IMG/VR virus record: IMGVR_UViG_3300044630_002434
Coordinates: 55,712 to 119,711 of that record
Origin: a virus
Strand: one strand, 5' to 3'
DNA length: 64,000 bases
The notes under the pieces are model-generated. The model was not told the origin of the DNA and did no database searches. It saw only the letters and a list, made by a program, of their open reading frames with translations. How positions within the stretch are numbered: position 1 is the stretch's first letter; every line of letters starts with the position of its first letter. Positions 6,710-51,998 of the stretch are shown here, one piece after another. The position numbers were made by a program, and so were the translations under genes.

Positions 6710-6985
6710 ATGAAAAGACGCACAAAGAAAAACAATGAAGAATCTATGCTAGTCAAAGAAGACCAATACCGCGCAGTCATTACCTACCTACCAAATAAGA
6801 ATGGATATAAAGCATCCGTTCAACGTAGAATCGGCATAGATGAGTGGGTTAAAGTTCAATGTGGACTTAAAGGAGTAGTTTTTGCTTCAAAAGAGTCTGC
6901 TGAAAACAGAGCAAGATATAAAATTAAAGAACAAAAAGGTATGGACAATGCAGAAAAAAACTCTTACATTGTTTACGATGATTAG
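6710..6985 (+). CDS. Hypothetical basic protein
   Basis: A 91-residue Lys/Arg-rich protein whose ATG follows the reductase stop by one base, with an AAGGATAAG ribosome site inside the end of that gene. The centre (YRAVITYLPNKNGYKASVQ) looks like a small beta domain ending in a helix (ESAENRARYKIKEQ), a layout seen in small AP2- or dsRBD-like folds, but I cannot assign it. It was probably co-transcribed with the reductase. Confidence 0.6.
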   Translation: MKRRTKKNNEESMLVKEDQYRAVITYLPNKNGYKASVQRRIGIDEWVKVQCGLKGVVFASKESAENRARYKIKEQKGMDNAEKNSYIVYDD

Positions 6986-6999
6986 GATAGAATACTGAT

Positions 7000-7188
7000 A
7001 TGCCTACATACGACTACATCTGTTCAAGCGACCACCTCTATACAGAAGAGCGTTCAATCCACGAGGACCAAAAAGTATTTGAATGCCCAGAGTGCAAAGA
7101 AACTCTTAAGCGTGTTTTCATTGCTGTCCCAGTTACTTTCCAAGCACCCGGCTTCTACGCAAGCGAGCGAAAGGGTATGGGGTTATGA
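7000..7188 (+). CDS. FmdB-like zinc-ribbon protein
   Basis: A 62-residue protein that begins MPTYDYIC and has CPECKETLKRVF followed by PVTFQAPGFYAS. This is the layout of FmdB-family regulatory zinc ribbons (MPTYDY.C..CG ... CP.C....RV ... GFYAT). The first knuckle is degenerate: one Cys is followed by SSDH rather than xxCG. The role is unknown, probably nucleic-acid or protein binding. It overlaps the next gene by ATGAG. Confidence 0.8.
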   Translation: MPTYDYICSSDHLYTEERSIHEDQKVFECPECKETLKRVFIAVPVTFQAPGFYASERKGMGL

Positions 7189-8997: not shown

Positions 8998-9307
8998 TTT
9001 CGAGTTTCTTTTCCTCTTTACGCTCTTTCACAATATTTTCTACTGTTTTGTTCTTCCAGTGTACCGTCTTTACTCTGGACACATAGAACGAACGAAACAC
9101 AGAGTACCCTTTTCGACCACCGACAACATCAATCCATTCAGCAGTTGGAGTCTTTACGTGCTTAACAAATCTGAATCTACCTGCTTCACCAGTAATAGAT
9201 AGTTCTGTACCAGCAACTACAGTTCGACCATTAATTTGAATCTCATTCTTTACTGTCCAATTATCTGGATGCGCTTTGGTTTTTTGCTTGCTCACTTTTT
9301 TTCCCAT
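8975..9307 (-). CDS. Conserved actinophage-type hypothetical protein
   Basis: A 110-residue protein with a beta-rich core (IQINGRTVVAGTELSITGE, FRFVKHV, WIDVVGG, RVKTVHW) and basic ends. This arrangement looks like a family I have met in actinophages, but I have no reliable name or function for it. The start at 9307 fits the leaderless promoter at 9314-9342, with the -10 box six bases before the ATG. First gene of a two-gene minus-strand operon with the CHAP-like protein. Confidence 0.65.
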   Translation of the reverse strand: MGKKVSKQKTKAHPDNWTVKNEIQINGRTVVAGTELSITGEAGRFRFVKHVKTPTAEWIDVVGGRKGYSVFRSFYVSRVKTVHWKNKTVENIVKERKEEKKLENANSIED

Positions 9308-9313
9308 AACTAG

Positions 9314-9342
9314 ATTGTATCATACCTTCCTGACATAAGCAA
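9314..9342 (-). promoter_or_regulatory. Minus-strand promoter giving a leaderless mRNA
   Basis: Read on the minus strand: -35 TTGCTT (9342-9337), a 17-base spacer, then extended TGA-TACAAT (-10 at 9319-9314) and six bases to the ATG at 9307. The expected transcription start coincides with the start codon, and no ribosome site is present. Confidence 0.65.
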
Positions 9343-9377
9343 ATCCCCGCGAGTTACAAGGTCGAAACTATTTTCCA

Positions 9378-9393: not shown

Positions 9394-10470
9394 ATGCCTG
9401 AAGTATCAATCCCAACGAGTGTACCAACTGCTGGTGACTTATTCGACGCAAAGACGAAACAACTTGCGCGTTTCTGTGAAGAACCAGCGTGGTCTGCCTA
9501 TAACCCTTCTATCTGCTACACAGAAGAGCATGGGTATCTCGTACTGCTACGCTCCTCAAACGGCTGGCTACGCGACCACAGACCAGAGTGGCAAGTAGAA
9601 ACAGGCGACGAACTTACCACTGAGGATTCCTACGAGAACCCCGGAGAATGGTACCAGGCTTCATATATTAATTCCGTTCTAGGAACAGAGAAGCATTTTA
9701 GAAATAGAATGTTTCTTGCAAGTCTAAACACAAAGACACTCAATCTTTCTTACTTGAAAGAGATAGACCTAACTCAGGCTTACTCACAAGCCCCCGCAAA
9801 ACTTATAAGAGGAATAGAAGATGGAAGACTCTACTACGACGGAGAAACGCTACGAATCTCTGCGACGGTATTTGAAATTGGGCACATTAATGTTGCTCGT
9901 ATTTGTTCTGTTGAACTGGACTTAAGCGGAGATACTCCACGCGGTGTTTCGTTTGAGATGTTTGACTCTCCTGTTAATGAAGATACCGTCGAGAAAAACT
10001 GGATGCCAGTTCATAAGTCATCTATTTTTAACCCAGATGATGTAACTTTTGATTATCTTTATTCTTCAGGAAAGACCTACACAATCAAAGACCGTTCCCT
10101 AAAAGAAGTTGGCGGACCAGCACCGTCCGTCCGAGGTGGCTCACAACTTATCGGTTTAGAGAACGGAACCATGCTTGCAATTGTCCACCAGTGCGTTTCA
10201 GCCGAGTACATTAGATTTGCTAACCTAACCAAGGAAGCACTATTCCGTCGTCGTTATGTTCACCGCTTTATTCAGTATGACGAAAAGGGAAGAATCATAA
10301 AGGTTTCCGATATGTTTAACTTCCTAAACAAGTCAGTAGAGTTTGCAGGTGGAATGGCAATACACGAAAACAAACTCCTAGTTAGTTTTGGTGCCCTAGA
10401 CTCATCATCACACATAGCATCCATCCCCCTTAAAAACGTCTTGGCGAATCTTCGTCCTCCTCGTCTTTAA
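9394..10470 (+). CDS. GH130-like five-bladed beta-propeller protein (copy 1)
   Basis: A 358-residue protein with the landmarks of glycoside hydrolase/phosphorylase beta-propellers of the GH43/GH130 type: NPSI near the start, RNRMFLASL, a central RGIEDGRLYYDG (family E-D-x-R), EKNWMPVHK, RGGSQLIGLENGT and a late VHRFIQYDEKG. Two paralogues lie at 15163 and 46346. It may cleave, phosphorolyse or simply bind mannosides or other host glycans; the substrate cannot be told from sequence. No signal peptide, so it acts in the cytosol or in the virion. Confidence 0.65.
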   Translation: MPEVSIPTSVPTAGDLFDAKTKQLARFCEEPAWSAYNPSICYTEEHGYLVLLRSSNGWLRDHRPEWQVETGDELTTEDSYENPGEWYQASYINSVLGTEKHFRNRMFLASLNTKTLNLSYLKEIDLTQAYSQAPAKLIRGIEDGRLYYDGETLRISATVFEIGHINVARICSVELDLSGDTPRGVSFEMFDSPVNEDTVEKNWMPVHKSSIFNPDDVTFDYLYSSGKTYTIKDRSLKEVGGPAPSVRGGSQLIGLENGTMLAIVHQCVSAEYIRFANLTKEALFRRRYVHRFIQYDEKGRIIKVSDMFNFLNKSVEFAGGMAIHENKLLVSFGALDSSSHIASIPLKNVLANLRPPRL

Positions 10471-10515: not shown

Positions 10516-10884
10516 ATGAGCGAAGACGGTAATAACGAACGCGAAGAAGAAGTGGATGGCATGATTGAATTCCTCATTGAGTCAGGTGCTTTAGAACTTA
10601 CTTCTATAGATAAAAACGGAGACCCTGTTTACAGGATTACTAGTATTTGTAAAGACTTATTCCCTGACCTCTACTACGAACATATGAAGAACGCGGACGA
10701 CACTGCTTTTGCTTTATGGCAAAAAGGTTTATTAGAGATTTCCTTTGCTGAAGACAACACTAACTACATCACGATGTCCGCCGAGAACTACTTAAGATAT
10801 CTAGACATTGCTGACCAGTTATCTGAAGACGAAGAAAGTCTTATGTTTGTCTTGATAAATAAGAATATTCTGGACGCTCAGTAG
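10516..10884 (+). CDS. Hypothetical acidic protein
   Basis: A 122-residue protein with a GAGGAA ribosome site. It is very acidic. The core (IEFLIESGALELTSIDKNG, PVYRITSICKDLFPDLY) looks like a winged-helix pair with a beta hairpin, as in small phage transcription factors or anti-sigma-like proteins. There is no firm homology. It sits just upstream of the ncRNA candidate, whose promoter follows its stop codon by a few bases. Confidence 0.55.
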   Translation: MSEDGNNEREEEVDGMIEFLIESGALELTSIDKNGDPVYRITSICKDLFPDLYYEHMKNADDTAFALWQKGLLEISFAEDNTNYITMSAENYLRYLDIADQLSEDEESLMFVLINKNILDAQ

Positions 10885-10887
10885 GAC

Positions 10888-10914
10888 TTGACACCGTTCT
10901 AGGTTTCTTATAAT
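10888..10914 (+). promoter_or_regulatory. Near-consensus promoter of the ncRNA candidate
   Basis: TTGACA (10888-10893) and TATAAT (10909-10914) are both perfect sigma70-type hexamers, separated by 15 bases (16 if the -35 is read one base earlier). No plausible protein gene follows before the terminator at 11061-11099. It is the strongest-looking promoter in the window. Confidence 0.75.
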
Positions 10915-10920
10915 CTACAG

Positions 10921-11106
10921 ATAGTTCTTGATGTATTAGGTGTTTTCTGCCAGTTCTACTAATACATTAAGACCCTTCGCAGAAATGTGGTTTGTTCTCC
11001 TTTCCTACATTTTTTTGGAAGCGCGTTGTCCCGGCACTTGCGAACACGGGGCACACATAAAAACCGCCCCACCGAATCTAATTCTGCGTAGGGCGGTTTA
11101 TTTATT
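10921..11106 (+). ncRNA. Candidate structured small RNA with H-type pseudoknot
   Basis: The transcript is bounded by a near-consensus promoter and a strong terminator, about 185 nt. ATGTATTAG (10931-10939) pairs perfectly with CTAATACAT (10959-10967). Loop bases TTTCTGC (10944-10950) pair perfectly with GCAGAAA (10979-10985) outside the stem, making a pseudoknot. A second stem joins 11027-11033 with 11047-11053 (one G-U). The single-stranded CTCCTTTC at 10997-11004 matches the 3' end of 16S rRNA and could pair with ribosome sites. It is not a tRNA, tmRNA or any riboswitch I recognise. The function (riboregulator, decoy, or host RNA mimic) is unknown. Confidence 0.55.
11061..11105. terminator. 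Bidirectional terminator between convergent units
   Basis: AAACCGCCC (11061-11069) and GGGCGGTTT (11091-11099) form a perfect 9-bp stem with a 21-base loop. A T-rich tail follows on the plus strand and TTTTTATG on the minus strand. It ends the ncRNA and the convergent NlpC/P60 gene. Confidence 0.8.
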
Positions 11107-11115
11107 TATTCAATT

Positions 11116-11625
11116 TTATAGTCTTCTAAACTGGACATTCTTGCTCCAGATTTTTTCAATTTTTACTACTCTGCCTGGTTTCGGAGAGTGTAAGACTTCT
11201 CCGTTTCCTGCATAGATTGCGACGTGGTAAGCATGACCACCTGACGAAAAGAAAAACACCAAGTCACCGACTTGAGCGTCTCCACGAGCAATCTTTTTTG
11301 ACTGCTTGTATTGACCTCCAGTAGTTCTTGCTATTTCCTTACCTTTCTTCTTGTAGATGTACTGAGTAAACCCAGAACAGTCAAAACACTTAGGATTTGT
11401 TCCACCCTTGCAGTAAGGGATTCCTAAATACTTTAGACCAATTTTGTACGTGGATATAGGTTTTGCTAGAAAACTTTCACTAGCCTTTATTTCTCCTAGA
11501 GTTATATTCGACTTTACTGATAATTCATTAGCGTTGGCTTGACCCTGGGTTACTGGTGGCGATATGACCATAGCGGACATAAGAAGCGCAGTAACGGTGG
11601 TCAAAACCTTGGTTCTGACTAACAT
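11116..11625 (-). CDS. Secreted NlpC/P60 peptidoglycan endopeptidase
   Basis: A 169-residue protein with an N-terminal signal sequence (residues 1-30, cleavage near GQA-NAN) and an NlpC/P60 domain: DCSGFTQYIY with catalytic C83, GDLVFFFSSGGHAYHVAIY with His134, and a third polar residue near H146. The family cleaves D-Glu-mDAP bonds of peptidoglycan. Export by the host Sec system implies action from outside the membrane, as a lysis or envelope-remodelling enzyme. The ATG at 11625 follows an extended -10 by seven bases; two upstream in-frame GTG codons are less likely. Confidence 0.85.
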   Translation of the reverse strand: MLVRTKVLTTVTALLMSAMVISPPVTQGQANANELSVKSNITLGEIKASESFLAKPISTYKIGLKYLGIPYCKGGTNPKCFDCSGFTQYIYKKKGKEIARTTGGQYKQSKKIARGDAQVGDLVFFFSSGGHAYHVAIYAGNGEVLHSPKPGRVVKIEKIWSKNVQFRRL

Positions 11626-11632
11626 CACCACT

Positions 11633-11775: not shown

Positions 11776-12519
11776 TTACTTTTTCTTCTTCTTTTTGTTG
11801 GTGTTGCCGTAATTAACAGCCTTTTTCTGTTTAGCCAACCATTCGTCATAGTTAGATTCAACAATCCAAACTTGCTTATGATGACCGAATACAGCGCCTG
11901 TATGAGCCACCATAGGGATTTTTAGCGACTGTACGCGCTCACAGAAGGTCAAATCCTCAGAGAGCCACTTGTTATCGCCAATCGGACCGTCTTGGAACCA
12001 AGCCCAATCCTCACCAAAATGCTTGCTGTATCCCTTACGAACCTCTTCAAGCACGGAACGGTGAATCATCATTGCACCAGTCCCCGCTGCGTAAATCTCA
12101 ACCAGAGAGTTTTTAGGGTAGTCATAAAACGGCTGGACACCTAGTTCTCCACCATGATTCACAAAGATAAGTGGAACAGGTTCTAACTGCCCTGGCTCTG
12201 GAACGGTTCCAGTGAAGTAAAGTCCGCTAACAAAAGGATAAACGTCCTTGTCTGCACTGTTCACAAGTTTATCAAAACCGTCTTGACTAATGTATTCATC
12301 AGCGTCAACAATAAATAACCAGTCATCTGTTGTTCCATCGAGGAAGTTCTTCACTTGAATATTACGACTCTTGGCTAATAGACCCAGCCCTTGAACACTA
12401 TGAAAGTTACCAATTCTATTAGGATTTTGCTTAATCAAATCCATTACACTATGCGCAAAGAACGCATCAACTTCACCGTGGTGACACCACGAAATACATA
12501 CTGTTTCATTATCCTGCAT
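11776..12519 (-). CDS. GT-A-type glycosyltransferase
   Basis: A 247-residue protein with a family 2-like layout: an N-terminal CISWCHHGEVDAFF, then WLFIVDADEYIS (a D-x-D metal and nucleotide-sugar site near residue 70) and a polar acceptor half with GTGAMMIHR and EDLTFCERV. It probably transfers a sugar to DNA, a virion protein or a host surface glycan. The C-terminus ends in an all-Lys tail. I use the ATG at 12519, which follows a good promoter by 11 bases, rather than an upstream extension into the divergent promoter. Confidence 0.7.
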   Translation of the reverse strand: MQDNETVCISWCHHGEVDAFFAHSVMDLIKQNPNRIGNFHSVQGLGLLAKSRNIQVKNFLDGTTDDWLFIVDADEYISQDGFDKLVNSADKDVYPFVSGLYFTGTVPEPGQLEPVPLIFVNHGGELGVQPFYDYPKNSLVEIYAAGTGAMMIHRSVLEEVRKGYSKHFGEDWAWFQDGPIGDNKWLSEDLTFCERVQSLKIPMVAHTGAVFGHHKQVWIVESNYDEWLAKQKKAVNYGNTNKKKKKK

Positions 12520-12530
12520 GGAAAAACAGT

Positions 12531-12559
12531 ACCATAGCCGTCTTGTTTTCTCCATCCAA
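12531..12559 (-). promoter_or_regulatory. Divergent promoter, minus-strand side
   Basis: Read on the minus strand: -35 TTGGAT (12559-12554), a 17-base spacer, -10 TATGGT (12536-12531). The ATG at 12519 follows after 11 bases, leaving a leader of about 5 nt. Confidence 0.6.
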
Positions 12560-12571
12560 CAGGCGTATGAT
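12543..12571 (+). promoter_or_regulatory. Divergent promoter, plus-strand side (leaderless)
   Basis: -35 TTGTTT (12543-12548), a 17-base spacer, -10 TATGAT (12566-12571), then six bases to the ATG at 12578. No ribosome site is visible. It overlaps the minus-strand promoter, so polymerases at the two would compete. Confidence 0.6.
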
Positions 12572-12577
12572 TTTCCT

Positions 12578-13678
12578 ATGACTGATGAACTATGGTACAA
12601 ATTAGAACACTCAAACTCACCCCTGACTTCTCAAGTGCAGATGGATGATGTTACAGAAGACCTAATTAAGCCATTTGACTATCAGTCAGAAGGTGAAGAA
12701 TCCTTCTACCCATATCTAGTCCCTCTAGATATTCCTAAGGACTTCGGTATCGGAGTCATTGTTGGAGCCTCTGGCACGGGCAAATCGACTCTTCTCAAAT
12801 CATTTGGTGAACCAGTACGCCCCAAATGGTCAGCGCAATCTATTGCTTCTCACTTTGAGAGCGCAGTAGAGGCAAATGAGAAGTTTTCGGCGGCGGGTTT
12901 AATGTCCGTGCCAGATTGGGTAAAGCCTTACAGCGTCCTATCCACTGGTCAGCAGTTCCGAGCAGACCTTGCTCGCTCTCTCCACGACGGCGCGGTCATT
13001 GACGAATTCACTTCTGTCATTGACAGGACTGTTGCCAAGGCAGCGTCTACGGCTATGTCTCGGTATGTACGCAAGAACGGTATACGCAACATTGTTCTGG
13101 CAACCTGCCACAGAGATGTTCTTGAGTACCTAGAACCAGACTGGATAATCGACACAGACCGTGGCGAGTGGACTACTGGGAGGTCACTTCGGCGACCAGA
13201 ACTGGACATCACAGTTTATCCTTGCTCAAACCAAGTTTGGGGTTACTTCGCTAAGCACCACTATTTATCCGAATCGCTCAACAAGTCAGCACACTGCTAC
13301 TTGGCATTCAGCGATGGAAAAGTAGTTGGCTTCGTTGCTTCACTGGCGTACCCCTCAGGAAGCGTACAGAACGCTTACAGAGAGCACCGCTTAGTAATCC
13401 ACCCTGATTATCAGGGCTTTGGTATTGGTCCAAGACTTTCCGAGGTTATAGCCCAGCACTACATTAGTAATGGCAAGCGTTACTTCTCAAAGACTTCCCA
13501 CCCCCGTTTAGGTGGATATCGTGACCAGTCCCCTGTATGGAAGCCAACCTCAAAGAACCACATGAAACGAAAAGACGGACAAGACGCTACAAAAACACGG
13601 TGGACTATTAATCCTGACCGTTGGTCTTATTCTCACGAATTCATCGGAGAGCCCGGAAAAATCAATTCTGAGGTATAG
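12578..13678 (+). CDS. ABC-type ATPase fused to GNAT acetyltransferase-like domain (COG2401 type)
   Basis: A 366-residue fusion. Residues 55-200 form an ABC ATPase: Walker A GASGTGKST (63-71), a signature loop LSTGQQFRADLARSL (121-135), Walker B AVIDEFTS (139-146) and switch His178. Residues 210-300 form a GNAT fold with HHYLSESLNKSAHCYLAF, VVGFVASL and the acetyl-CoA loop VIHPDYQGFGIG (273-284). This architecture is known as COG2401; its GNAT half resembles Mom-type proteins. It may drive an ATP-dependent DNA or RNA modification, alone or with the Mom-like gene at 3694. No transmembrane domain, so it is not a transporter. The exact substrate is unknown. Confidence 0.75.
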   Translation: MTDELWYKLEHSNSPLTSQVQMDDVTEDLIKPFDYQSEGEESFYPYLVPLDIPKDFGIGVIVGASGTGKSTLLKSFGEPVRPKWSAQSIASHFESAVEANEKFSAAGLMSVPDWVKPYSVLSTGQQFRADLARSLHDGAVIDEFTSVIDRTVAKAASTAMSRYVRKNGIRNIVLATCHRDVLEYLEPDWIIDTDRGEWTTGRSLRRPELDITVYPCSNQVWGYFAKHHYLSESLNKSAHCYLAFSDGKVVGFVASLAYPSGSVQNAYREHRLVIHPDYQGFGIGPRLSEVIAQHYISNGKRYFSKTSHPRLGGYRDQSPVWKPTSKNHMKRKDGQDATKTRWTINPDRWSYSHEFIGEPGKINSEV

Positions 13679-14462: not shown

Positions 14463-15166
14463 TGGACGCTACCTTTAGTTCAGAGATGACAGTAGAACTT
14501 GTTAAGCACAGCGCTTCTGATTCAGATATTGCTTTTGCTGCCAGAGTATCTACTCAGGGAGAACGCTCTAAAGAAACTACAACAGGAGAGATTGGCGGTC
14601 TCATTAACTTCCTTATGAGAGAGCGTCACGGCTCCCCATTCGAACACTCCACAATGACTTTTTATGTCAAGGCTCCAATTTTTGTTTGGCGCGAGCATAT
14701 GCGACATCGTATGGCAAGTTACAACGAAGAGTCAGGACGCTACAAAACACTAGAGCCACACTTCTACGTACCAGACAAAGAGCGCAAGTTAATTCAAGTT
14801 GGAAAGACTGGCTTTTACACATTTGAAGAAGGCACTCTTATGCAGTACGGAAGCGTGCTTGCTGGATATCTTAAAGGTGCTAAGGCTTCATATGAAGCGT
14901 ATCTAAAGATGCTTGAATCTGGAATTGCTAAAGAAGTCGCTCGCGGAGTTCTTCCAGTAAACATTTACTCCAGCGCGTATGTCACTATGAACGCTCGTGC
15001 GCTTATGAACTTTCTTAGCCTACGTAAGTCTGACCCTGACTCACACTTTCCGTCCTACCCTCAACGGGAGATTGAAATGGTTGCAGAGCAGTATGAAGAA
15101 ATATTCAAAGAACTTATGCCACTAACCTACAATGCTTTTGTTAAGAATGGAAGAGTAGCACCTTGA
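14462..15166 (+). CDS. thyX: FAD-dependent thymidylate synthase ThyX
   Basis: A 234-residue flavoenzyme that makes dTMP from dUMP using methylenetetrahydrofolate and NADPH. The ThyX signature is intact: RHRMASYNEESGRY (residues 81-94, consensus RHRxxSxNExSxRY). HGSPFEHSTMTFYV and the C-terminal SLRKSDPDSHFPSYPQ also match. The ATG at 14462 overlaps the dCMP deaminase stop (TAATG) and has GGGAAAGAG upstream; an in-frame ATG at 14441 is less well placed. Works directly downstream of the deaminase. Confidence 0.95.
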   Translation: MDATFSSEMTVELVKHSASDSDIAFAARVSTQGERSKETTTGEIGGLINFLMRERHGSPFEHSTMTFYVKAPIFVWREHMRHRMASYNEESGRYKTLEPHFYVPDKERKLIQVGKTGFYTFEEGTLMQYGSVLAGYLKGAKASYEAYLKMLESGIAKEVARGVLPVNIYSSAYVTMNARALMNFLSLRKSDPDSHFPSYPQREIEMVAEQYEEIFKELMPLTYNAFVKNGRVAP

Positions 15167-16092
15167 CCTACCCAACAATCTCTGACTTAAGTGGTGAAGC
15201 GCATCTTATTCGTAGATACGCTATGCCTTCTAATAAGAATTGGAGTGCATTCAATCCTTCAATAATTCTTTCTGACAAAGAAGAGTATTGGATTGCATTC
15301 AGGGCTAGTAACTATATTTTCTCGGATACAAGAATCTCAGTAAGACTCACTGCTGGCAATAGGGTAAGAAATAAAATGTTTCTTGTACGTCTTAAAGATG
15401 ACTGGTCATTTGACGAAGACACTCTAAAAGAAATAACTGTAGACAATGTTAGAGAAAATGTTGTTAGAGGACTAGAAGACCCAAGACTTTTCTGGGACGG
15501 AGTAAGTTATTGCATAAGTTCTACTTACTTAGAGAAAGATAATCCAGTAGCAAGAATCTCAAAGATAAGACTTAAATCTTTAGAAGACCCTGAAGTTTTA
15601 TCTATGGAAGTTTATTCATCTCCAAACAATCAAGTTGAAAAGAACTGGATGCCTGTGCAGGACACAGAATCTTTTATCTACGACTACTGCTCTGTGTTTA
15701 CTAACGAAGAGATAGTAAAGCACGATGTAAGTAAAGAGTATGAAACTTTTAGAGGTGGCACTCAAGTAATCCCTTTTGGAGATGGAACAAGCGTTGGGCT
15801 AGTGCACGAAATTTATTCAGTGGTTGTTAGGGGAGCAAATCCCGTGACATTTTCTTCTACAACAAAAATAAGAAACTACAGTCACAGGTTTGTTAGATAC
15901 AACAAAGACTTAAAACCTATTCAGTTATCAGATAGTTTTATTTTTGTAAAAGAAGGAATCGAGTTTGCATCTGGGATTGCACCAACTAAAGACGGGTTTG
16001 TTATTAGTTTAGGTAGGTCTGACTTGGCTTCATACATAGCAACAATAAGTAAAGATAATCTACTAGCAACACTTAAGGATTTAAATGTCTAA
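15163..16092 (+). CDS. GH130-like beta-propeller protein (copy 2)
   Basis: A 309-residue protein with the same landmarks as the gene at 9394: WSAFNPSI, RNKMFLVRL, RGLEDPRLFWDG, EKNWMPVQD, RGGTQVIPFGDGT, HRFVRYN and a closing FASGIAP...ISLGR. It is shorter and lacks several loops of copy 1. The TTG start overlaps the thyX stop (TTGA). Predicted five-bladed propeller that binds or processes a glycan. The catalytic acidic residues cannot be confirmed by eye. Confidence 0.65.
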   Translation: MTYPTISDLSGEAHLIRRYAMPSNKNWSAFNPSIILSDKEEYWIAFRASNYIFSDTRISVRLTAGNRVRNKMFLVRLKDDWSFDEDTLKEITVDNVRENVVRGLEDPRLFWDGVSYCISSTYLEKDNPVARISKIRLKSLEDPEVLSMEVYSSPNNQVEKNWMPVQDTESFIYDYCSVFTNEEIVKHDVSKEYETFRGGTQVIPFGDGTSVGLVHEIYSVVVRGANPVTFSSTTKIRNYSHRFVRYNKDLKPIQLSDSFIFVKEGIEFASGIAPTKDGFVISLGRSDLASYIATISKDNLLATLKDLNV

Positions 16093-37530: not shown

Positions 37531-38430
37531 TTACGCTAAGTACCATGTTATCACAACTACAATACCTGGAGCCCCTGAAGCACCGAAATAGAAAAAACCA
37601 CCACCAGTAGAGTCTATAGAACCTCCACCGCCACCGCCACCGTAAGAATTTCCTGCAGACGGAGTAAATGAAGCGTTTGGCGAACCGCCTTTTCCACCAG
37701 AAGCAGGAACAGCCATTCCCGTAGGAGAAGAGTTTGGGTTGCTTATAGAGTGTGAAACAGCGTTACCGCCGTCTCCTCCGACTACAGGAGAGCCTGGAGC
37801 GCCTATACCGCCACTGCCTCCACCACCAGCGGCTCCATAAGAAGGATTACCTGGACCACCATATAAATTAGAATAAGTGCCAGAAAAAGAGCCTCCATCA
37901 GGATTTGCTCCGCTACCTCCACTAAACATACCAGTGCCACCAAATCCACCATAACTAAGTCCTACTTGATGACCAGCGCCAGCACCGCCTCCTGCTTTTA
38001 CACCACCACTTGACCCAAAACTAGAGTCTCCTCCGTTTGAAGCAGTACCATAGTCAAGATAGGTAGTTCCGCCAGCACCACCTGTTCCGACAGTCACAGT
38101 TACAGTTGAGCCTAGAATGACGGCATCGTATGTGTAATAAGACATACCTCCGCCTCCGCCGCCACCACCATTATAATAAGAGGTGCTACCAAAGAAAGTA
38201 GTAATGCTTGAGGTATCCCCACCGCCACCGCCACCAATGCAAACAACAGAAACTACATCAGCATTTGCAGGTTTTGTCCAAGTACCTGAAGAAGTAAATG
38301 CTTCTACAGTTACTCCACCAAGTTTTTGCCAATCAATAAGTTCCCAAGCGCCCTTGGATGAAACATACTCCCACGTGACGTTATTAATTGTGTATTGCTC
38401 GCCATTGTCAGGACTAGAAGGAAAAGTCAT
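37531..38430 (-). CDS. Glycine-rich tail-fibre protein 1
   Basis: A 299-residue protein. The N-terminal module FPSSPDNGEQY ... WEYVSSKGAWELIDW (residues 3-35) is shared with the next two genes and is a common fibre anchor. Then a strand block EAFTSSGTWTKPANADVVSV leads to a Gly-rich beta-sheet tip with GGGGGG stretches, ending GIVVVITWY. Such tips mimic insect/phage glycine-rich adhesins and probably contact the host. Not secreted: part of the virion. Confidence 0.8.
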   Translation of the reverse strand: MTFPSSPDNGEQYTINNVTWEYVSSKGAWELIDWQKLGGVTVEAFTSSGTWTKPANADVVSVVCIGGGGGGDTSSITTFFGSTSYYNGGGGGGGGMSYYTYDAVILGSTVTVTVGTGGAGGTTYLDYGTASNGGDSSFGSSGGVKAGGGAGAGHQVGLSYGGFGGTGMFSGGSGANPDGGSFSGTYSNLYGGPGNPSYGAAGGGGSGGIGAPGSPVVGGDGGNAVSHSISNPNSSPTGMAVPASGGKGGSPNASFTPSAGNSYGGGGGGGSIDSTGGGFFYFGASGAPGIVVVITWYLA

Positions 38431-38435
38431 TTAAA

Positions 38436-39317
38436 TCACCCATACCAAACTGTAACAAAACAAGCACCACTTGCACCAGCACCGCCAGCACCGCCAGCAC
38501 CTGTTGCTCCAGCAGTAGAGCCTTCACCGCCACCGCCGCCACCGCCTCCATAAAGACCTCCAGCACCTGCAGCAGAAACTGTTGTAGTAGTAGAAACTCT
38601 TCCGTTACCACCAGAACCTGGACCTCTTAAAGTAGCGTTGCTTGTTCCTGCGCTACCAGCAGTCCCCGATTGAGTCAGGTTAAAAGCACTTGGAACAGAA
38701 CCTAAACCAAAAAATTCGCCACCACCGCCACCGCCACCGCCAGCGACTCCATTTAATCCATCTGCCTCATACGAGGCATTTCCTCCAGAACTACCCCTAA
38801 ACATACCTAAACCACCAGCACCACCAATTTGAGGTGAGGCGGTCCCCCCTAAACCATTAGCACCACCGTAGGCATAAAGGAATGTTCCAAAAGATGTTGT
38901 TCCACCAGAAGTTCCGTTGTTACCGTCAAGAGCAGTTGTTCCTGATGCAGTTGCTGCGCCAGCAGAACCACCTGCTCCCACGGTTACAGTAATTGATGCA
39001 TCTACACCGCCAAGGTCTTCTGCTCTAAATAAATATCTTGACAGTCCTCCACCACCGCCGCCACCGCCACCTCTATCACCAGAGAGGTTACGAGCACCAC
39101 CGCCACCGCCACCGCCACCGCCAATGCAAGTTACTTCAACAACTTTTGCTCCAGCAGGAACTATAAATGTGGCACTAGCAGTTAGTGCTGTTACTGTAGG
39201 TGCAATTAACTCATTAAAACTGGTGACTTCCCAAGAGTTTGTAGCAGAATAGTAAGTATAAGTAATGTTATCTAAAACATCTGTTTGTCCGTTTGTTGGG
39301 CTAGAGGGAAAAGTCAT
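38436..39317 (-). CDS. Glycine-rich tail-fibre protein 2
   Basis: A 293-residue paralogue of the previous product: FPSSPTNGQT ... YTYYSATNSWEVTSF, then ALTASATFIVPAGAKVVEV and a Gly-rich tip ending GACFVTVWYG. The Gly tracts are encoded mainly by GGN runs whose antisense gives Pro-rich shadows. Tandem copies suggest duplication and divergence of a receptor-binding tip. Confidence 0.8.
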   Translation of the reverse strand: MTFPSSPTNGQTDVLDNITYTYYSATNSWEVTSFNELIAPTVTALTASATFIVPAGAKVVEVTCIGGGGGGGGGARNLSGDRGGGGGGGGGLSRYLFRAEDLGGVDASITVTVGAGGSAGAATASGTTALDGNNGTSGGTTSFGTFLYAYGGANGLGGTASPQIGGAGGLGMFRGSSGGNASYEADGLNGVAGGGGGGGGEFFGLGSVPSAFNLTQSGTAGSAGTSNATLRGPGSGGNGRVSTTTTVSAAGAGGLYGGGGGGGGEGSTAGATGAGGAGGAGASGACFVTVWYG

Positions 39318-39319
39318 AA

Positions 39320-41380
39320 TTATTCATACCAAATCGTGAGAAAAACACAACCTTGAGCGCCAGCGCGACCAATAGCACCACCAAAACCAGAAGCACCAGC
39401 ACCACCACCGCCACCTCCACCGCCATAAAGGTTACCAGGAGAACCAATAGTACCGAAATTAGTAGATGAACCAAGACCACCACCGCCACCTGCGCCAGGG
39501 TTTATAGTAGATGTTGTCCAAAGTAAAGGCGCGACGTTTCCATTTCCACCAATACTAGAAGTGTGATTCCCACCACCGCTACCACCTCCGCGAGCGCCAG
39601 TTGAAATTGCAGGAGAGTCATTTGAGCCAGTATCTAAACCTGCGCCGCCTGCGCCGCCAGTAAACATTCCTATACCGCCAGAGCCCTCTTGACCTAAGGT
39701 TGTTCCTCCAGTAAAACCAGCACTACCACCAGCAGCAATTAATGTTCCTAATGAGCCAGAGTCAGCAATTTTAAAACTTGAAGTTCCGCCACCGCTACCG
39801 CTACCGCTACCACCAGCGCCAACTGTGATAACTGCAGTAGTTTGATACCCAGAAATTAAATTGTATGTGTGAATAGACATACCTCCGCCACCACCGCCAC
39901 CTCCGCCAGCAACACTTGTACCAGAACCTCCCATACCACCTGCTCCTCCGCCACCAATAACTACGGCATGAATTGCGCGAGCACTAGTTGGAATAGTCCA
40001 AGAAGAAACGGAAGAAGTAAAAAGATGTGTTGTTGGAGCCTTTTTAGGGATGGACGTATCTATTTCCCAACGGTTGTCCGTGGCATTGTAGGTATAGCGA
40101 GTTCCAGTGTTGTTAAAGTTGTATACGTATGCAGCGCCTTGCCCTCCCGTTGGAGAAGTGTCTTCACCAGAAGCACCGATTAATGCAATGTTACCGTCTG
40201 AAGAAAGTGCGACTGACCAACCAAACTCGTCACCAGATGCGCGGTCTGATGCTACAAGTTTTTGTTTTTGAGTCCAAGTAACACCCGAACGGGTAAATAC
40301 GTATGCAGCGCCGTTATTTGTGATTGGAGAGGCGCTCTCTAGGTAAGCGCCAATAAGAGCAATATTTCCATTTGCTGAGAGGGAAACTGACCAACCAAAA
40401 CGGTCACTTCCTGCACGGTCTGACGCTAGAAGTTTTTGTTGCTGTGTCCACGTGGAACCTGAGCGGGTGAATACATATGCAGCGCCGTTGTCTACGTTTG
40501 GAGACGTATTCTCGTATCTAGCACCAACAATTGCTGTATTGCCATCTGAGGAAAGGGCGACTGAAGCACCAAACTCGTCACCTGTTGCTAGGTCTGATGC
40601 TAAAAGTTTTTGTTGCTGTGTCCATACACCTGCTGAGCGGGTGAATACATATGCAGCGCCATTGTCTGTATTAGGGGAGGTGTCTTCTAGGTAAGCACCA
40701 ATTAAGGCTGTATTTCCGTCTGAGGAAATTGCCATTGACGCACCAAAATAATCAGTTGACGCTCGGTCTGATGCTGTTAATTTTTGTTGTTCTGTCCATA
40801 TACCTGCTGTGCGGGTAAATACGTAAGCAGCGCCTTGGTTTGTGTTTGGGGAGGTGGATTCAGCACGAGCGCCAATAAAGGCTATGTTTCCATCCGAAGA
40901 AAGGGCGACTGAATAGCCTAAATTATCACCTGCTGCGCGGTCTGATGCTAAGATTTTTTGTTGCTCAGTCCATACACCTGCCGTGCGGGTGAATACGTAT
41001 GCAGCGCCGTTAAATGTAGTTGGGGATGTCGCTTCTCCCCAAGCACCAATTAGGGCTGTGTTTCCGTCTGAAGAGAGGGCGACTGACCAACCAAATCGAG
41101 CGTTAGATGCAGTGTCAGATAACACATCAGATGCTAAGAGTTTTGTTTGCTCAGTCCATGTAGAACCTGAACGGGTGAATACATAAGCAGCGCCGTTTAG
41201 TGTGTTTGGGGAGGTGGATTCAGCACGAGCGCCAACAATTAGTGTAAAACCATCTGCAGATAAAAAAACTGACTCGCCAAAACTGTCAGAAGTTTCACGG
41301 TCAGACGCTAAAAGTTTTTGTACCTGCGGAGGAATATAGGTATCACCATTAGAGGGTGATGTAGGAAAAACTGTAGACAT
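39320..41380 (-). CDS. Tail-fibre protein with inserted seven-bladed propeller and glycine-rich tip
   Basis: A 686-residue fusion. It starts FPTSPSNGDTYIP and, about 430 residues later, continues RYTYNATDNRWEIDTS: the same module as the two neighbouring genes, split by an insertion. The insertion holds seven FG-GAP-like repeats of about 58 residues (KLLASDR...G.SVALSSDGNTALIGA ... GAAYVFTRS...WTQQQ), predicted to close a seven-bladed propeller. A Gly-rich tip follows to the end (FLTIWYE). Part of it is 97 bp identical to the gene at 58179. Confidence 0.85.
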   Translation of the reverse strand: MSTVFPTSPSNGDTYIPPQVQKLLASDRETSDSFGESVFLSADGFTLIVGARAESTSPNTLNGAAYVFTRSGSTWTEQTKLLASDVLSDTASNARFGWSVALSSDGNTALIGAWGEATSPTTFNGAAYVFTRTAGVWTEQQKILASDRAAGDNLGYSVALSSDGNIAFIGARAESTSPNTNQGAAYVFTRTAGIWTEQQKLTASDRASTDYFGASMAISSDGNTALIGAYLEDTSPNTDNGAAYVFTRSAGVWTQQQKLLASDLATGDEFGASVALSSDGNTAIVGARYENTSPNVDNGAAYVFTRSGSTWTQQQKLLASDRAGSDRFGWSVSLSANGNIALIGAYLESASPITNNGAAYVFTRSGVTWTQKQKLVASDRASGDEFGWSVALSSDGNIALIGASGEDTSPTGGQGAAYVYNFNNTGTRYTYNATDNRWEIDTSIPKKAPTTHLFTSSVSSWTIPTSARAIHAVVIGGGGAGGMGGSGTSVAGGGGGGGGGMSIHTYNLISGYQTTAVITVGAGGSGSGSGGGTSSFKIADSGSLGTLIAAGGSAGFTGGTTLGQEGSGGIGMFTGGAGGAGLDTGSNDSPAISTGARGGGSGGGNHTSSIGGNGNVAPLLWTTSTINPGAGGGGGLGSSTNFGTIGSPGNLYGGGGGGGGAGASGFGGAIGRAGAQGCVFLTIWYE
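40591..40687 (-). repeat. 97-bp perfect direct repeat, copy 1
   Basis: Identical to 60830-60926, in the same orientation 20.2 kb away. Both lie in FG-GAP repeat coding regions. The match stops abruptly at both ends. Confidence 0.9.
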
Positions 41381-45113: not shown

Positions 45114-46356
45114 TGATGTAGTCCTTTATTTTTTGTAGGTCTTCACTAAATTTATTTGCTTTGTAGTCTTCATATTTTTCTTTATCAGACTCTAAAAGAC
45201 CAGTCACTTTGTGGTAGATGGTATCTGGAGTCCATCCAGTTCTACGGTGGTCCATAATAATATCTGGCATAAACTTTTCAGTTCCAAGTTCTTTTGCTAT
45301 CTCGCTCCAGAAGTTATCAAAGAAGTTATGAGCAACTGCAGGGCAACCATAGAATCCAACAGCACGAACCATATTTGTTGTAATGCACGGGTGAGTTCCC
45401 CAGTTTATGTGGTCTGGAAGGTCAAGAGTGTTTCCGTACACAAGACCAGCAGGGACACTACTTAAGTACTCAATAAACTCGGACTCCCATAAAGTCTTAA
45501 ATACTAAGTCGTCTCCAACAAACATTATGTATTTGTATGTTTTTGCTAGTTCTGGTCCAACTGTGTTTATTTTTTCCATAAGGGTAAGTTCAGGTGGCTG
45601 TACCGTTACGCTAAATTTATTTTTATGCTCGCTTAAAAATCCAAAATTATGAGTGTCATCAGAGTCAATAATGATGTGAACGTCTGAAAGTCCCTCAGTC
45701 ACTTTAGACCATGAATTAAGACACTTAATTAGTCTTTGCGCTCTACCTGTTCCGTTATCTCGCACGGGAAGAACAATAGCAATTTTATCTAACTGAACAT
45801 TAAAAGTTTTAAGACTGTTATGCACCGCAGACCTGTGAGAGGGCTCAAGTTCTTTAAGATTTCCTAGTTTAATAAACATATCTAAACTTTCGCTTTGGCG
45901 GTCTAGCCACCAAGCACTTAAAGCCTTTTGAAACTCTAAAGCGTTTACGCCGATATATCCAACATCAACAGGAAGCGGTGCTAATTCTTTGTTTTCTTGG
46001 ACAAGACCAAGTTCAGCAAAAGTATGGCACTCTTGCCAGTTTGCTGTTTTTTCATAGAACTTAGATAGTTTGTAGTAAGCCTCTGGTCGCTCTGGAGTAT
46101 GTTCAATAGCCTGAAGAAAACTATTACTTACGTTCCAGTCTCGTTCGCCTTGACGCTCTAAACAAATTCCAACTTTAATAAGAGAAGAGTAGACCAGTTC
46201 TTTGGTTATCCCATACTCTGCTGCTCTTAAATAAAAGGATATCGCAGAAGCATTCTGACCAATGTTTTCATATTCAACGGCTATCTTAAAATTAAGTTCA
46301 GCGCTGTGAGGTTCAAAAGATAGAGATGAGATTAATTCTTTAATATTATTGTACAT
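45103..46356 (-). CDS. TPR-domain protein fused to a GT-A-type glycosyltransferase
   Basis: A 417-residue fusion. Residues 15-190 hold TPR-like helices (ELNFKIAVEYENIGQNASAI, YYKLSKFYEKTANWQE), and residues 200-410 the same transferase fold as the neighbouring gene (IAIVLPVRDNG, VHIIIDSDD, YIMFVGDDLVF, GFYGCPAVAHNFFDNFW). TPRs often tether GTs to their protein acceptors. The ATG at 46356 overlaps the propeller gene's stop; a longer upstream frame lies inside that gene. Confidence 0.7.
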   Translation of the reverse strand: MYNNIKELISSLSFEPHSAELNFKIAVEYENIGQNASAISFYLRAAEYGITKELVYSSLIKVGICLERQGERDWNVSNSFLQAIEHTPERPEAYYKLSKFYEKTANWQECHTFAELGLVQENKELAPLPVDVGYIGVNALEFQKALSAWWLDRQSESLDMFIKLGNLKELEPSHRSAVHNSLKTFNVQLDKIAIVLPVRDNGTGRAQRLIKCLNSWSKVTEGLSDVHIIIDSDDTHNFGFLSEHKNKFSVTVQPPELTLMEKINTVGPELAKTYKYIMFVGDDLVFKTLWESEFIEYLSSVPAGLVYGNTLDLPDHINWGTHPCITTNMVRAVGFYGCPAVAHNFFDNFWSEIAKELGTEKFMPDIIMDHRRTGWTPDTIYHKVTGLLESDKEKYEDYKANKFSEDLQKIKDYINVR

Positions 46357-47356
46357 TTGACAAAGCCTCCAGCACATATTTATCCACAAGTTGTTTAGGC
46401 ACATCAAGAATGTATGCAGCGTTATCTTGAAATCCAAAAGTTACTAATAAGTTCTCACCAAAAACAGCAGCGCCAGCACAGAACTCTACGCGAGCATCTA
46501 AAAACGTAATGGGGTTAGGAGAAACACCAACTAGATTCCATTGGTCATCCCACACACAAAATCTGTGACGGTATATGCCGTCCTTACGTCCTAGATAGTT
46601 ATTGAATAAATAAACTTCGTGAGTGATTGATACGCGGTAATTACCCCAACGAAATACCTGAGACCCACCGCGTTGGTCTGCAGGAGCAGAGACACCTTCA
46701 CGAACAAAGAGTTGTTCGCAACGTGGAGGGTTTTCTAGATGCGCTTGAACAAGTTCTGTAGGAGCAGTCCACTTAACTAAGTGGAATGGCATATCTAAAA
46801 CTGGAACCCAGTTTTTTTCACAATATGAATTACCATTGAGTGGAGCAGGAATTCTATGCCTAGAAACTTCTTTTGCAGTCCAGTTTTCTTTGTCTAGTTC
46901 GATTTCACTAAACTCCATACGACCTTGACCGCTCGTAGTCGTGTCGCGACGAACACCAATTAGGTAATATTTGTCTTCCCAATAAACTAAACGAGCATCT
47001 TCAAGACCAACAAACTCCCAAAGGGGCTCAACATCAAGCAAAGACGTGTCAACAACTGTTGACTTTTCTATTTCTAGATTCTCGTTTAATTTACATAAAT
47101 AATTTGTTGTAGCAAGACGCTGGTCAGTTTCAGGATGCAAATACGCAAGAGGACCCCAACGGCTAGTGAAGCGTTGGTTTCCTTCAGAGTGGTAAAGCGT
47201 GTAGTTTACGTGCCTTAGATTTACAAGAATATCCCCATCTTTATCAATAAAAACAGACGGATTCATTAGACCAGTGCTATTACTAGCCTCATTAGCAATA
47301 ATAAGAGGGGAAATTGACCCCCCGCTATCCAAGGTTTCTTGCACAAAAGTTGTCAT
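46346..47356 (-). CDS. GH130-like beta-propeller protein (copy 3)
   Basis: A 336-residue protein with NPSVFID, GLEDARLVYWED, CEKNWVPVLD, RGGSQVFRWG, HRFCVWDD and EFCAGAA. It shares all landmarks with copies at 9394 and 15163 though overall identity is low. Located with sugar-modifying genes, it may trim or bind the same glycan. AAAGGA ribosome site; start at 47356 rather than an in-frame ATG 11 codons upstream. Confidence 0.65.
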   Translation of the reverse strand: MTTFVQETLDSGGSISPLIIANEASNSTGLMNPSVFIDKDGDILVNLRHVNYTLYHSEGNQRFTSRWGPLAYLHPETDQRLATTNYLCKLNENLEIEKSTVVDTSLLDVEPLWEFVGLEDARLVYWEDKYYLIGVRRDTTTSGQGRMEFSEIELDKENWTAKEVSRHRIPAPLNGNSYCEKNWVPVLDMPFHLVKWTAPTELVQAHLENPPRCEQLFVREGVSAPADQRGGSQVFRWGNYRVSITHEVYLFNNYLGRKDGIYRHRFCVWDDQWNLVGVSPNPITFLDARVEFCAGAAVFGENLLVTFGFQDNAAYILDVPKQLVDKYVLEALSNVQ

Positions 47357-47396
47357 ATGTAGTCCTTTAGTAGTATGTCTTAAAAACATAATGCTA

Positions 47397-51062: not shown

Positions 51063-51998
51063 TTAGTAGTAGATTACCACAAAACCAGCAGTTCCATCGG
51101 AAGTATTAGCCACGCCACCGTAACCAGCATTTAATCCGTATGGGTAAGAAACATCAGATATACCTGCTGGAGTTCGAGCAGAACCAGTTATATTTGATGA
51201 TGCAATTGCTCCAGCGCGAATAAAGCCTGAGCCACCACCACCGCCAGCCATAGTATTGGATTCGGAATAGCCACCCCCAGAGCCACCAAAGTAGCCACCG
51301 CCTCCGCCGCCGCCGTAACTGTTAGTACGGGAGTAACCGCCTACAAGAGCGCCTTGCCCGCCTGTGGTATTAGGGCTATCACTAGAAGCATCAGCACCAG
51401 CCCCTAATTGAGTTCCAGCACGCCCGCGATAAGCAGTTTTAGAATCGTATGGTGAAGTACCGTCTTGAGCAGTTTCCCCGCCCCCAGCACCGCCAATATT
51501 GCCAGTTCCAGCGCGTGAACTGCCACCACCGCCGCCGCCGCCAGCAATTACAAGGGCATTAGCCTGATTAATAGTTGTGCTAGTAAAAACTCCACTATAG
51601 CCACCGCCACCGCCGCCGTAACTGTTATCTGTGCCGTTTCCAGAAGCAGAACTGCCACCGCCAAAACCTTTGCCAACTCCTTGATTTCGATAACCCTGTT
51701 GACCAGTTACAACTCCAAGAGTTCCTGAAACTCCATCAATAATTGCTGTTGAATAGCCACCACCACCACCGTCAGCGCCATAAAGCCAACCACCAACTTT
51801 TCCAGCGCCACCCCCAGCCCCCCAAGCCTTAACAAGAATTGTTCTAGCGTCTGCTGGAAGCACAAGACTTTGCACCGAATTTACATTAGGAAAAACGGCA
51901 ACTCTTGGGCTGTAAAGAAGTTGATTTATTTGATTCTCAAGATTTCCCTGAGAAATTCTAGAGTAGTTAACATTAGGAAAGAGGCGTTCTAGTCTCAC
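51063..51998 (-). CDS. Glycine-rich fibre-tip protein
   Basis: A 311-residue protein. A helical N-terminus (ISQGNLENQINQLLYS) is followed by a beta-rich collar and a Gly-rich sheet (SYGGGGGGYSG, GGGGGGGSS) and ends FVVIYY. Similar tips occur in other phages' fibres. The GTG start overlaps the stop of the collagen-like gene. Confidence 0.75.
   Translation of the reverse strand: MRLERLFPNVNYSRISQGNLENQINQLLYSPRVAVFPNVNSVQSLVLPADARTILVKAWGAGGGAGKVGGWLYGADGGGGGYSTAIIDGVSGTLGVVTGQQGYRNQGVGKGFGGGSSASGNGTDNSYGGGGGGYSGVFTSTTINQANALVIAGGGGGGGSSRAGTGNIGGAGGGETAQDGTSPYDSKTAYRGRAGTQLGAGADASSDSPNTTGGQGALVGGYSRTNSYGGGGGGGYFGGSGGGYSESNTMAGGGGGSGFIRAGAIASSNITGSARTPAGISDVSYPYGLNAGYGGVANTSDGTAGFVVIYY

Follow-up and report, generated by a model that had tools for sequence, protein, structure and literature searches.

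A predicted transcription unit between convergent genes

The window, meaning the whole stretch of 64,000 nucleotides analysed here, corresponds to bases 55712-119711 of a 119,711-base (119.7-kb) IMG/VR virus record (G000). It contains a gap between two convergent genes: upstream lies p122 (10516..10884, plus strand), coding for a protein of unknown function and syntenic in all clades, and downstream a gene for an NlpC/P60 hydrolase with a signal region (11116..11631, minus strand; Pfam PF00877). In this gap we find a predicted non-coding RNA (10921..11106, plus strand), of which seven distinct versions are known, all from related IMG/VR phages and all at the same convergent site, in the order p122 (or p122-GT), RNA, and a lytic gene facing them. 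L016 (identical in three contigs), L014 and L026 form a close clade beside the window; L181, L173 and L179 belong to a second clade, where a transglycosylase-like lytic gene occupies the position of the convergent neighbour. The window phage carries a WhiB gene, and an actinobacterial host is therefore likely; we infer that the hosts are aquatic, probably abundant freshwater actinobacteria. The closest annotated relative is Actinomycetia phage DSL-LC01, from lake water, whose DNA polymerase shares 76% identity with that of the window phage; for the polymerases of Microbacterium phages the value is about 57%. Comparison of annotated phages with the RNA locus at the DNA level gave no match, and DSL-LC01, checked with the RNA core pattern, gave chance-like matches only.

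Side observations concern other proteins of the window. At 12518-13678 (plus strand), an ATPase-like N-terminus with a weak ABC match is fused to a GNAT acetyltransferase domain (PHROG 11143, function unknown). Three diverged copies of one protein family, 28-31% identical, lie at 9394-10470, 15163-16092 and 46346-47389, the first having no Pfam or PHROG match, and long tail-type proteins, collagen-like (QGLQGIQG) and glycine-rich, are encoded at 51995-54613 and 37531-41380 (both minus strand).

The first-pass annotation had proposed a near-perfect promoter. The -35 element TTGACA (10888..10893, plus strand) stands and is invariant in all seven versions, but TATAAT (10909-10914) does not qualify as its -10 element, the spacer between them being merely 15 nt. 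The conserved -10 element is TAATCT (TANNNT; 10911..10916, plus strand), placed after a 17-nt spacer and found also in L016 and L026; it is TAGCCT in L014 and TAGGTT, with an 18-nt spacer, in G005 (the genome of L181), L173 and L179. TTGACA-17/18-TANNNT is thus present upstream of the RNA in each version, and five of its eight occurrences in five small fragments (76 kb) are the promoter of the RNA. The terminator, announced as perfect, is so only in its stem: a stem-loop AAACCGCCC...GGGCGGUUU with an A/U-rich tail (11061..11099, plus strand; conserved in L016 and L014) comprises nine perfect base pairs between AAACCGCCC (11061-11069) and GGGCGGTTT (11091-11099), a 21-nt loop and the tail ATTTATTTATT, whose T run is impure. 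A canonical terminator follows the RNA in G005, L173 and L179. Judged by the positions of these signals, the RNA would start near 10921-10923 and end near 11099-11106, giving a predicted length of about 180 nt.

A consensus scan for promoters and terminators at the locus called neither element, because its rules demand other spacing and smaller loops. This result, together with the location of the terminator between convergent genes, both of which it may serve, is what one would expect if the gap held spurious promoter- and terminator-like sites and no functional RNA, or else a short coding gene. We consider this very improbable in view of the conserved promoter, the synteny, the compensatory changes described below and a core that is shared across divergent phages. 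Regarding a coding gene, the open frame 10940-11215 was rejected since it is broken by indels of 1-3 nt in hairpin I between versions, in agreement with the earlier view that the gap has no convincing ORF.

The RNA had also been described as one that could not be named, which is borne out by Rfam 15: a search with all families, including c4 antisense RNA (RF01695) and 6C RNA, gave no match at gathering score in the window. The best score on the window RNA was that of the LhrC model (RF00616; 21.4 bits, E 0.98), for a gathering score of 110 bits. Only sub-threshold scores were obtained for the window and G005 RNAs, and none of the families matched near the L173 and L179 RNAs (two tRNAs were found elsewhere). 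ARAGORN detected no tRNA or tmRNA gene in the window or at the G005 RNA. A riboswitch or leader would be followed by a gene on the same strand; in both clades the RNA is followed by the terminator and then by the convergent gene on the opposite strand.

Homologues and the conserved fold

Close-clade versions have in common an almost invariant stretch, TTCGCAGAAATGTGGTTTGTTCTCCTTTCCTACATTTTTTTGGAAGCG. In the neighbouring genes, identity at four-fold sites is 65-91% when the window is compared with L014 or L026. Second-clade relatives were located via the DNA polymerase. In G005 (83 kb) the gene order is the same, and the equivalent place (L181) holds about 400 nt devoid of a convincing gene, with TTGACA upstream and the canonical terminator. 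The 3' part of its RNA contains UUCGCA, a hairpin with the loop UUUUACCUCCUUA, and CUUGCGAA. A loose version of this arrangement, searched in nine genomes, occurs only twice elsewhere, the reverse strand of the G005 locus excepted, from which we estimate the probability of a chance match at the syntenic place to be on the order of 1 in 1000. A pattern search then added L173 and L179; these two of the seven homologues were obtained with a pattern requiring CTCCTT. A covariance model built from the close clade gave no match in 48 further relatives and missed the G005 homologue as well, indicating that the model is too narrow; in the same 48 relatives, a descriptor pattern matched G005 alone. In a search for host or prophage copies, one exact-pattern match on a Lachnospiraceae contig was judged to be due to chance because the surrounding anatomy is missing.

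The folding energy of the window RNA (10921-11106) is -54.5 kcal/mol, compared with -40.9 +/- 3.9 kcal/mol for dinucleotide shuffles (z = -3.5), and none of 200 shuffles folds as well. Its variable 5' domain, hairpin I (10926..10972, plus strand), pairs 10926-10939 with 10959-10972 through 14 bp in the minimum-energy fold, and the 9-bp perfect hairpin noticed previously is contained in this stem. Pairing is retained despite sequence changes in L016 and L026, with compensatory changes on both sides, the most striking case being L026, whose 14-bp stem is built from another sequence.

The first-pass annotation had further proposed that the loop of hairpin I pairs with its flank in a pseudoknot. 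The 7-nt complement (UUUCUGC, 10944-10950, with GCAGAAA, 10979-10985) does exist, and makes seven perfect pairs in the window and in L014. It is lost in two of the four close versions, L016 and L026: no upstream complement longer than 4 nt occurs there, and the loop of hairpin I has diverged while its stem was kept. We therefore rejected this pairing as a conserved pseudoknot. Moreover, the second clade has no hairpin I and GCAGAAA overlaps P1 and P2 of the fold described next, so that a functional role for this pairing is hardly credible.

What is conserved instead is a three-way junction with a different pseudoknot. Based on a hand alignment that was letter-checked against the source sequences, two clades of nearly unrelated sequence share the helices P1, P2 and P3, and in both the P3 loop pairs with the 3' tail to form the new pseudoknot. 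P1 is formed by UUCGC (10976..10980, plus strand) and GCGAA (11040..11044, plus strand); its five pairs are all invariant in both clades and thus offer no covariation test. P2 (10981..11014, plus strand; arms 10981-10990 and 11005-11014) is a stem in all versions. Its sequences are unrelated among the window, L181/L173 and L179, and both the stem and its anti-Shine-Dalgarno (anti-SD) loop are retained. This loop, UUUGUUCUCCUUUC (10991..11004, plus strand), contains the anti-SD motif CUCCUUUC at 10997-11004 and reads (C/U)CUCCUU in both clades; the unpaired anti-SD noticed at first, CTCCTTTC at the same positions, thus sits in the loop of a hairpin and is identical to 8 nt of the anti-SD tail. 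P3, in the hand alignment, joins AAGCGC (11019..11024, plus strand) to GCACUU (11034..11039, plus strand), with the consensus AAGYGS/SCRCUU over six pairs, a C-G to G-C double change at the sixth pair and one C.A mismatch in the window clade that is U-G in the second clade. The pseudoknot consists of five pairs between GUCCC in the P3 loop (11028..11032, plus strand) and GGGGC (11048..11052, plus strand), extendable to 11027-11033 and 11047-11053. Three of them vary (U-G/C-G/U-A, C-G/U-A and C-G/A-U), including double changes from C-G to U-A in L014 and from C-G to A-U in the second clade. The third stem claimed earlier (UGUCCCG, 11027-11033, with CGGGGCA, 11047-11053) is therefore present, its two strands being those of this pseudoknot and not of a stem in the fold first drawn. 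Overall, covariation among the three pairings initially proposed holds for hairpin I and, as pseudoknot strands, for the third stem, and fails for the loop of hairpin I with GCAGAAA. Independent compensatory events are few, and formal pair counts are weak on so few sequences.

Folding alone recovers P1, P2 and P3 in L181, L173 and L179 (z -1.8, -1.7 and -4.6, respectively). In the window clade, the program, which cannot predict pseudoknots, prefers P2 with the pseudoknot stem or, in L014, P1. Taken together, the RNA gene is almost certainly real and the junction with its new pseudoknot very probable, as far as can be judged by sequence comparison. The seven versions, promoter, terminator, synteny and compensatory changes strongly support the initial proposal of a stand-alone structured non-coding RNA exposing an anti-SD in an intergenic gap.

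The 5' domains are diverse. In L173 there is none, the core starting a few bases past the inferred RNA start. In G005 and L179, hairpin I is replaced by a conserved extra domain of about 220 nt (L125:14460-14685 in G005; 6890-7118, reverse strand, in L179), which is nearly identical between these two phages and has no Rfam match. Compensatory changes are seen in pairings read by eye (GAUGGC/GUCAUC to GAUAGC/GUUAUC, and UUUCUC/GAGAAA to UCUCUC/GAGAGG), and the start of an ATG-led frame in G005 is lost in L179. Within the domain lies AAGGUAAGG, a possible pairing partner for UUACCU in the P2 loop, which such pairing would mask.

The junction and pseudoknot might themselves be the working part, as a protein ligand, a nuclease-resistant element or a packaging or replication RNA, with the pyrimidine-rich loop binding a protein or another RNA and not SD sequences. 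P1, P3 and the pseudoknot are indeed conserved as well as the loop, and the order P1-P2-P3-P1' followed by pairing of the P3 loop with the tail is also seen in flavivirus-type exonuclease-resistant RNAs (PMC5760640): the three-way junction and the pairing of the third loop with a downstream strand are both found here, P3 and the pseudoknot covarying and P1 being invariant. No Rfam family matches the window, G005, L173 or L179 RNAs. However, CUCCUU is retained in the loop while its stem is rewritten, and the loop fits initiation regions far above chance, which makes this explanation quite unlikely.

Predicted pairing of the P2 loop with initiation regions

Every version reproduces 8-9 nt of the 16S anti-SD tail in its P2 loop, an unpaired region (two versions were found by requiring CTCCTT), and solely in this sense does the RNA mimic a host RNA, as had been suggested. 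On the G000 minus strand, at about 29-46 kb, lie small early-like genes, so called from the gene layout, with strong and uniform initiation regions (GAAAGGAGAACAAAATG type). Pairing of the window loop with 34 initiation regions of this cluster reaches a mean of -11.3 kcal/mol, with 11 at <= -12, versus -7.8 kcal/mol and 0 at <= -12 for 80 other genes; the corresponding means for the 16S tail are -10.1 and -8.2 kcal/mol. None of 3000 random genome 14-mers paired with the early cluster as well as the window loop. UUUGUU is the best of its six permutations ahead of CUCCUUUC. When CUCCUUUC is kept fixed, the mean score of the window loop is reached with 3.75% of random 6-nt prefixes, and a large part of the signal therefore comes from the anti-SD core as such. 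In the relative G001, the values are -10.6 (early) and -7.9 (other) kcal/mol, controls being as good in 0 of 2000 cases, and, leaving aside the strand opposite the RNA, perfect AAAGGAGANCAA matches fall in the early cluster. When all genes are averaged, the P2 loop (-10.1) does no better than shuffled loops (-9.9), which restricts the pairing signal to the early-like cluster. No pairing signal with initiation regions was obtained with the loop of hairpin I or with that of the P3/pseudoknot region.

The second clade behaves differently. For the loop of G005 and its own early genes, 58 of 1500 random 14-mers are as good, a generic anti-SD level, whereas the window loop outperforms it on these same genes (8 of 1500 controls as good). 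Co-evolution of the loop with early initiation regions was tested in this clade and is thus not visible. Hence the family as a whole supports SD sequestration, whereas a preference for early genes, with extended complementarity beyond chance, finds support in the window clade only. Alternatively, the RNA might be a general translation inhibitor whose anti-SD loop would act on all strong-SD messages, those of the host among them, for take-over or late shut-off. In favour of this, the second-clade loop UUACCUCCUU is a copy of the 16S tail that fits its own early genes no better than such a copy would, and the feature retained across both clades is a generic anti-SD core. In addition, host-toxic non-coding RNAs are known from the right end of the actinophages L5/D29 (PMC5712189). 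This explanation is nevertheless the less probable one and we hold it to be unlikely, because the six extra loop bases of the window clade improve pairing with early genes and not with other phage genes.

The early-like genes have further particularities. About 20 early-like promoters (G000:C1 28000-54500, minus strand, outside the window; also 9307-9345 of the window, minus strand) have TTGACAaaTGTCAGG in common, in which the palindrome TGACA-aa-TGTCA covers the -35 element and TANAAT follows 17 nt further on; this is a candidate repeated operator. TGTCAGG is strand-biased in G000 (26 vs 9) and G001 (24 vs 6), and not in the other relatives checked. In many early-like genes (G000:C1 29000-46000; G005:C1 12000-40000), a small hairpin (e.g. 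UUAUCGCAAGGGGCGAUAA) immediately precedes the SD, near the inferred mRNA start and with AAGGG/AGGGA loops, perhaps for mRNA protection or as a standby site. The promoter of the RNA itself lacks the TTGACAaaTGTCAGG palindrome, so the RNA is probably expressed under a control unlike that of the early promoters.

Proposed role and comparison with known systems

We propose that the locus encodes an antisense RNA of about 180 nt, with its own transcription unit, that sequesters SD sites and damps translation of early genes, and we give this combined statement a probability of about 0.5. The rigid three-way-junction/pseudoknot core would keep the P2 loop open as an antisense seed, and the loop would pair with SD sequences and exclude the 30S subunit. 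Since the window loop pairs best with initiation regions of the early cluster, the RNA would lower early-gene translation in the window clade, as an RNA counterpart of the T4 RegA protein. Reading these predictions from the genomes, sequestration of SD sites is the sounder part and rather likely, while early genes as the main targets are a tentative assignment, somewhat short of even odds. Of the regulation of phage or host translation suggested by the first-pass annotation, the phage part thus receives indirect support from the complementarity between loop and initiation regions. A broader and quite speculative possibility is a new class of phage regulatory RNA, in which a compact junction-pseudoknot, possibly resistant to 5'-3' decay, would display a copy of the anti-SD and carry interchangeable 5' domains (none, a hairpin, or the domain of about 220 nt that may mask the loop), switching off sets of SD-led messages in infection.

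To our knowledge, few phage RNAs act on a set of messages, and shut-off of early genes at the translational level is known chiefly from proteins, RegA being an example. If our proposal holds, the RNA would be a concrete, testable RNA version of this shut-off.

Small RNAs with an anti-SD stretch are also found among the streptococcal csRNAs of the CiaRH regulon, which are proposed to block initiation on several mRNAs (PMC3091779). Unlike the phage RNA, csRNAs are bacterial and have two stem-loops with the motif, including an anti-AUG, single-stranded between them; they have neither junction nor pseudoknot, and their sequence is unrelated. In Listeria, C/U-rich loops of LhrC target ribosome-binding regions, but its fold (RF00616) and host are different. 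Cyanobacterial Yfr1/Yfr10 contain UCCU in a conserved motif that is single-stranded or in a loop (PMC6778093); these RNAs are bacterial, with another motif and fold. Mycobacteriophages L5, D29 and StarStuff and the Rhodococcus phage WC1 produce non-coding transcripts, abundant in lytic growth (PMC5712189, PMC10986025), that map to a right-end region of about 500 nt or to other gaps and for which the available portions of these sources report no anti-SD loop or fold. The likeness to flavivirus-type exonuclease-resistant RNAs, in which a three-way junction is combined with pairing of the third-hairpin loop to a downstream strand (PMC5760640), is one of topology alone, no common sequence or ring contacts being seen, and may be taken as a lead only. 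The c4 antisense RNA of phages P1/P7 is likewise phage-encoded, and its loop sequences pair with the ribosome-binding site and block ant translation (PMC12197685); c4 acts on one linked target gene in temperate proteobacterial phages and is an Rfam family (RF01695), unlike the RNA described here. Finally, T4 RegA competes with the ribosome at the initiation regions of about 30 mRNAs (PMC3014915); RegA is a protein, whereas the phage factor proposed here is an RNA, with a previously undescribed fold presenting an anti-SD loop.
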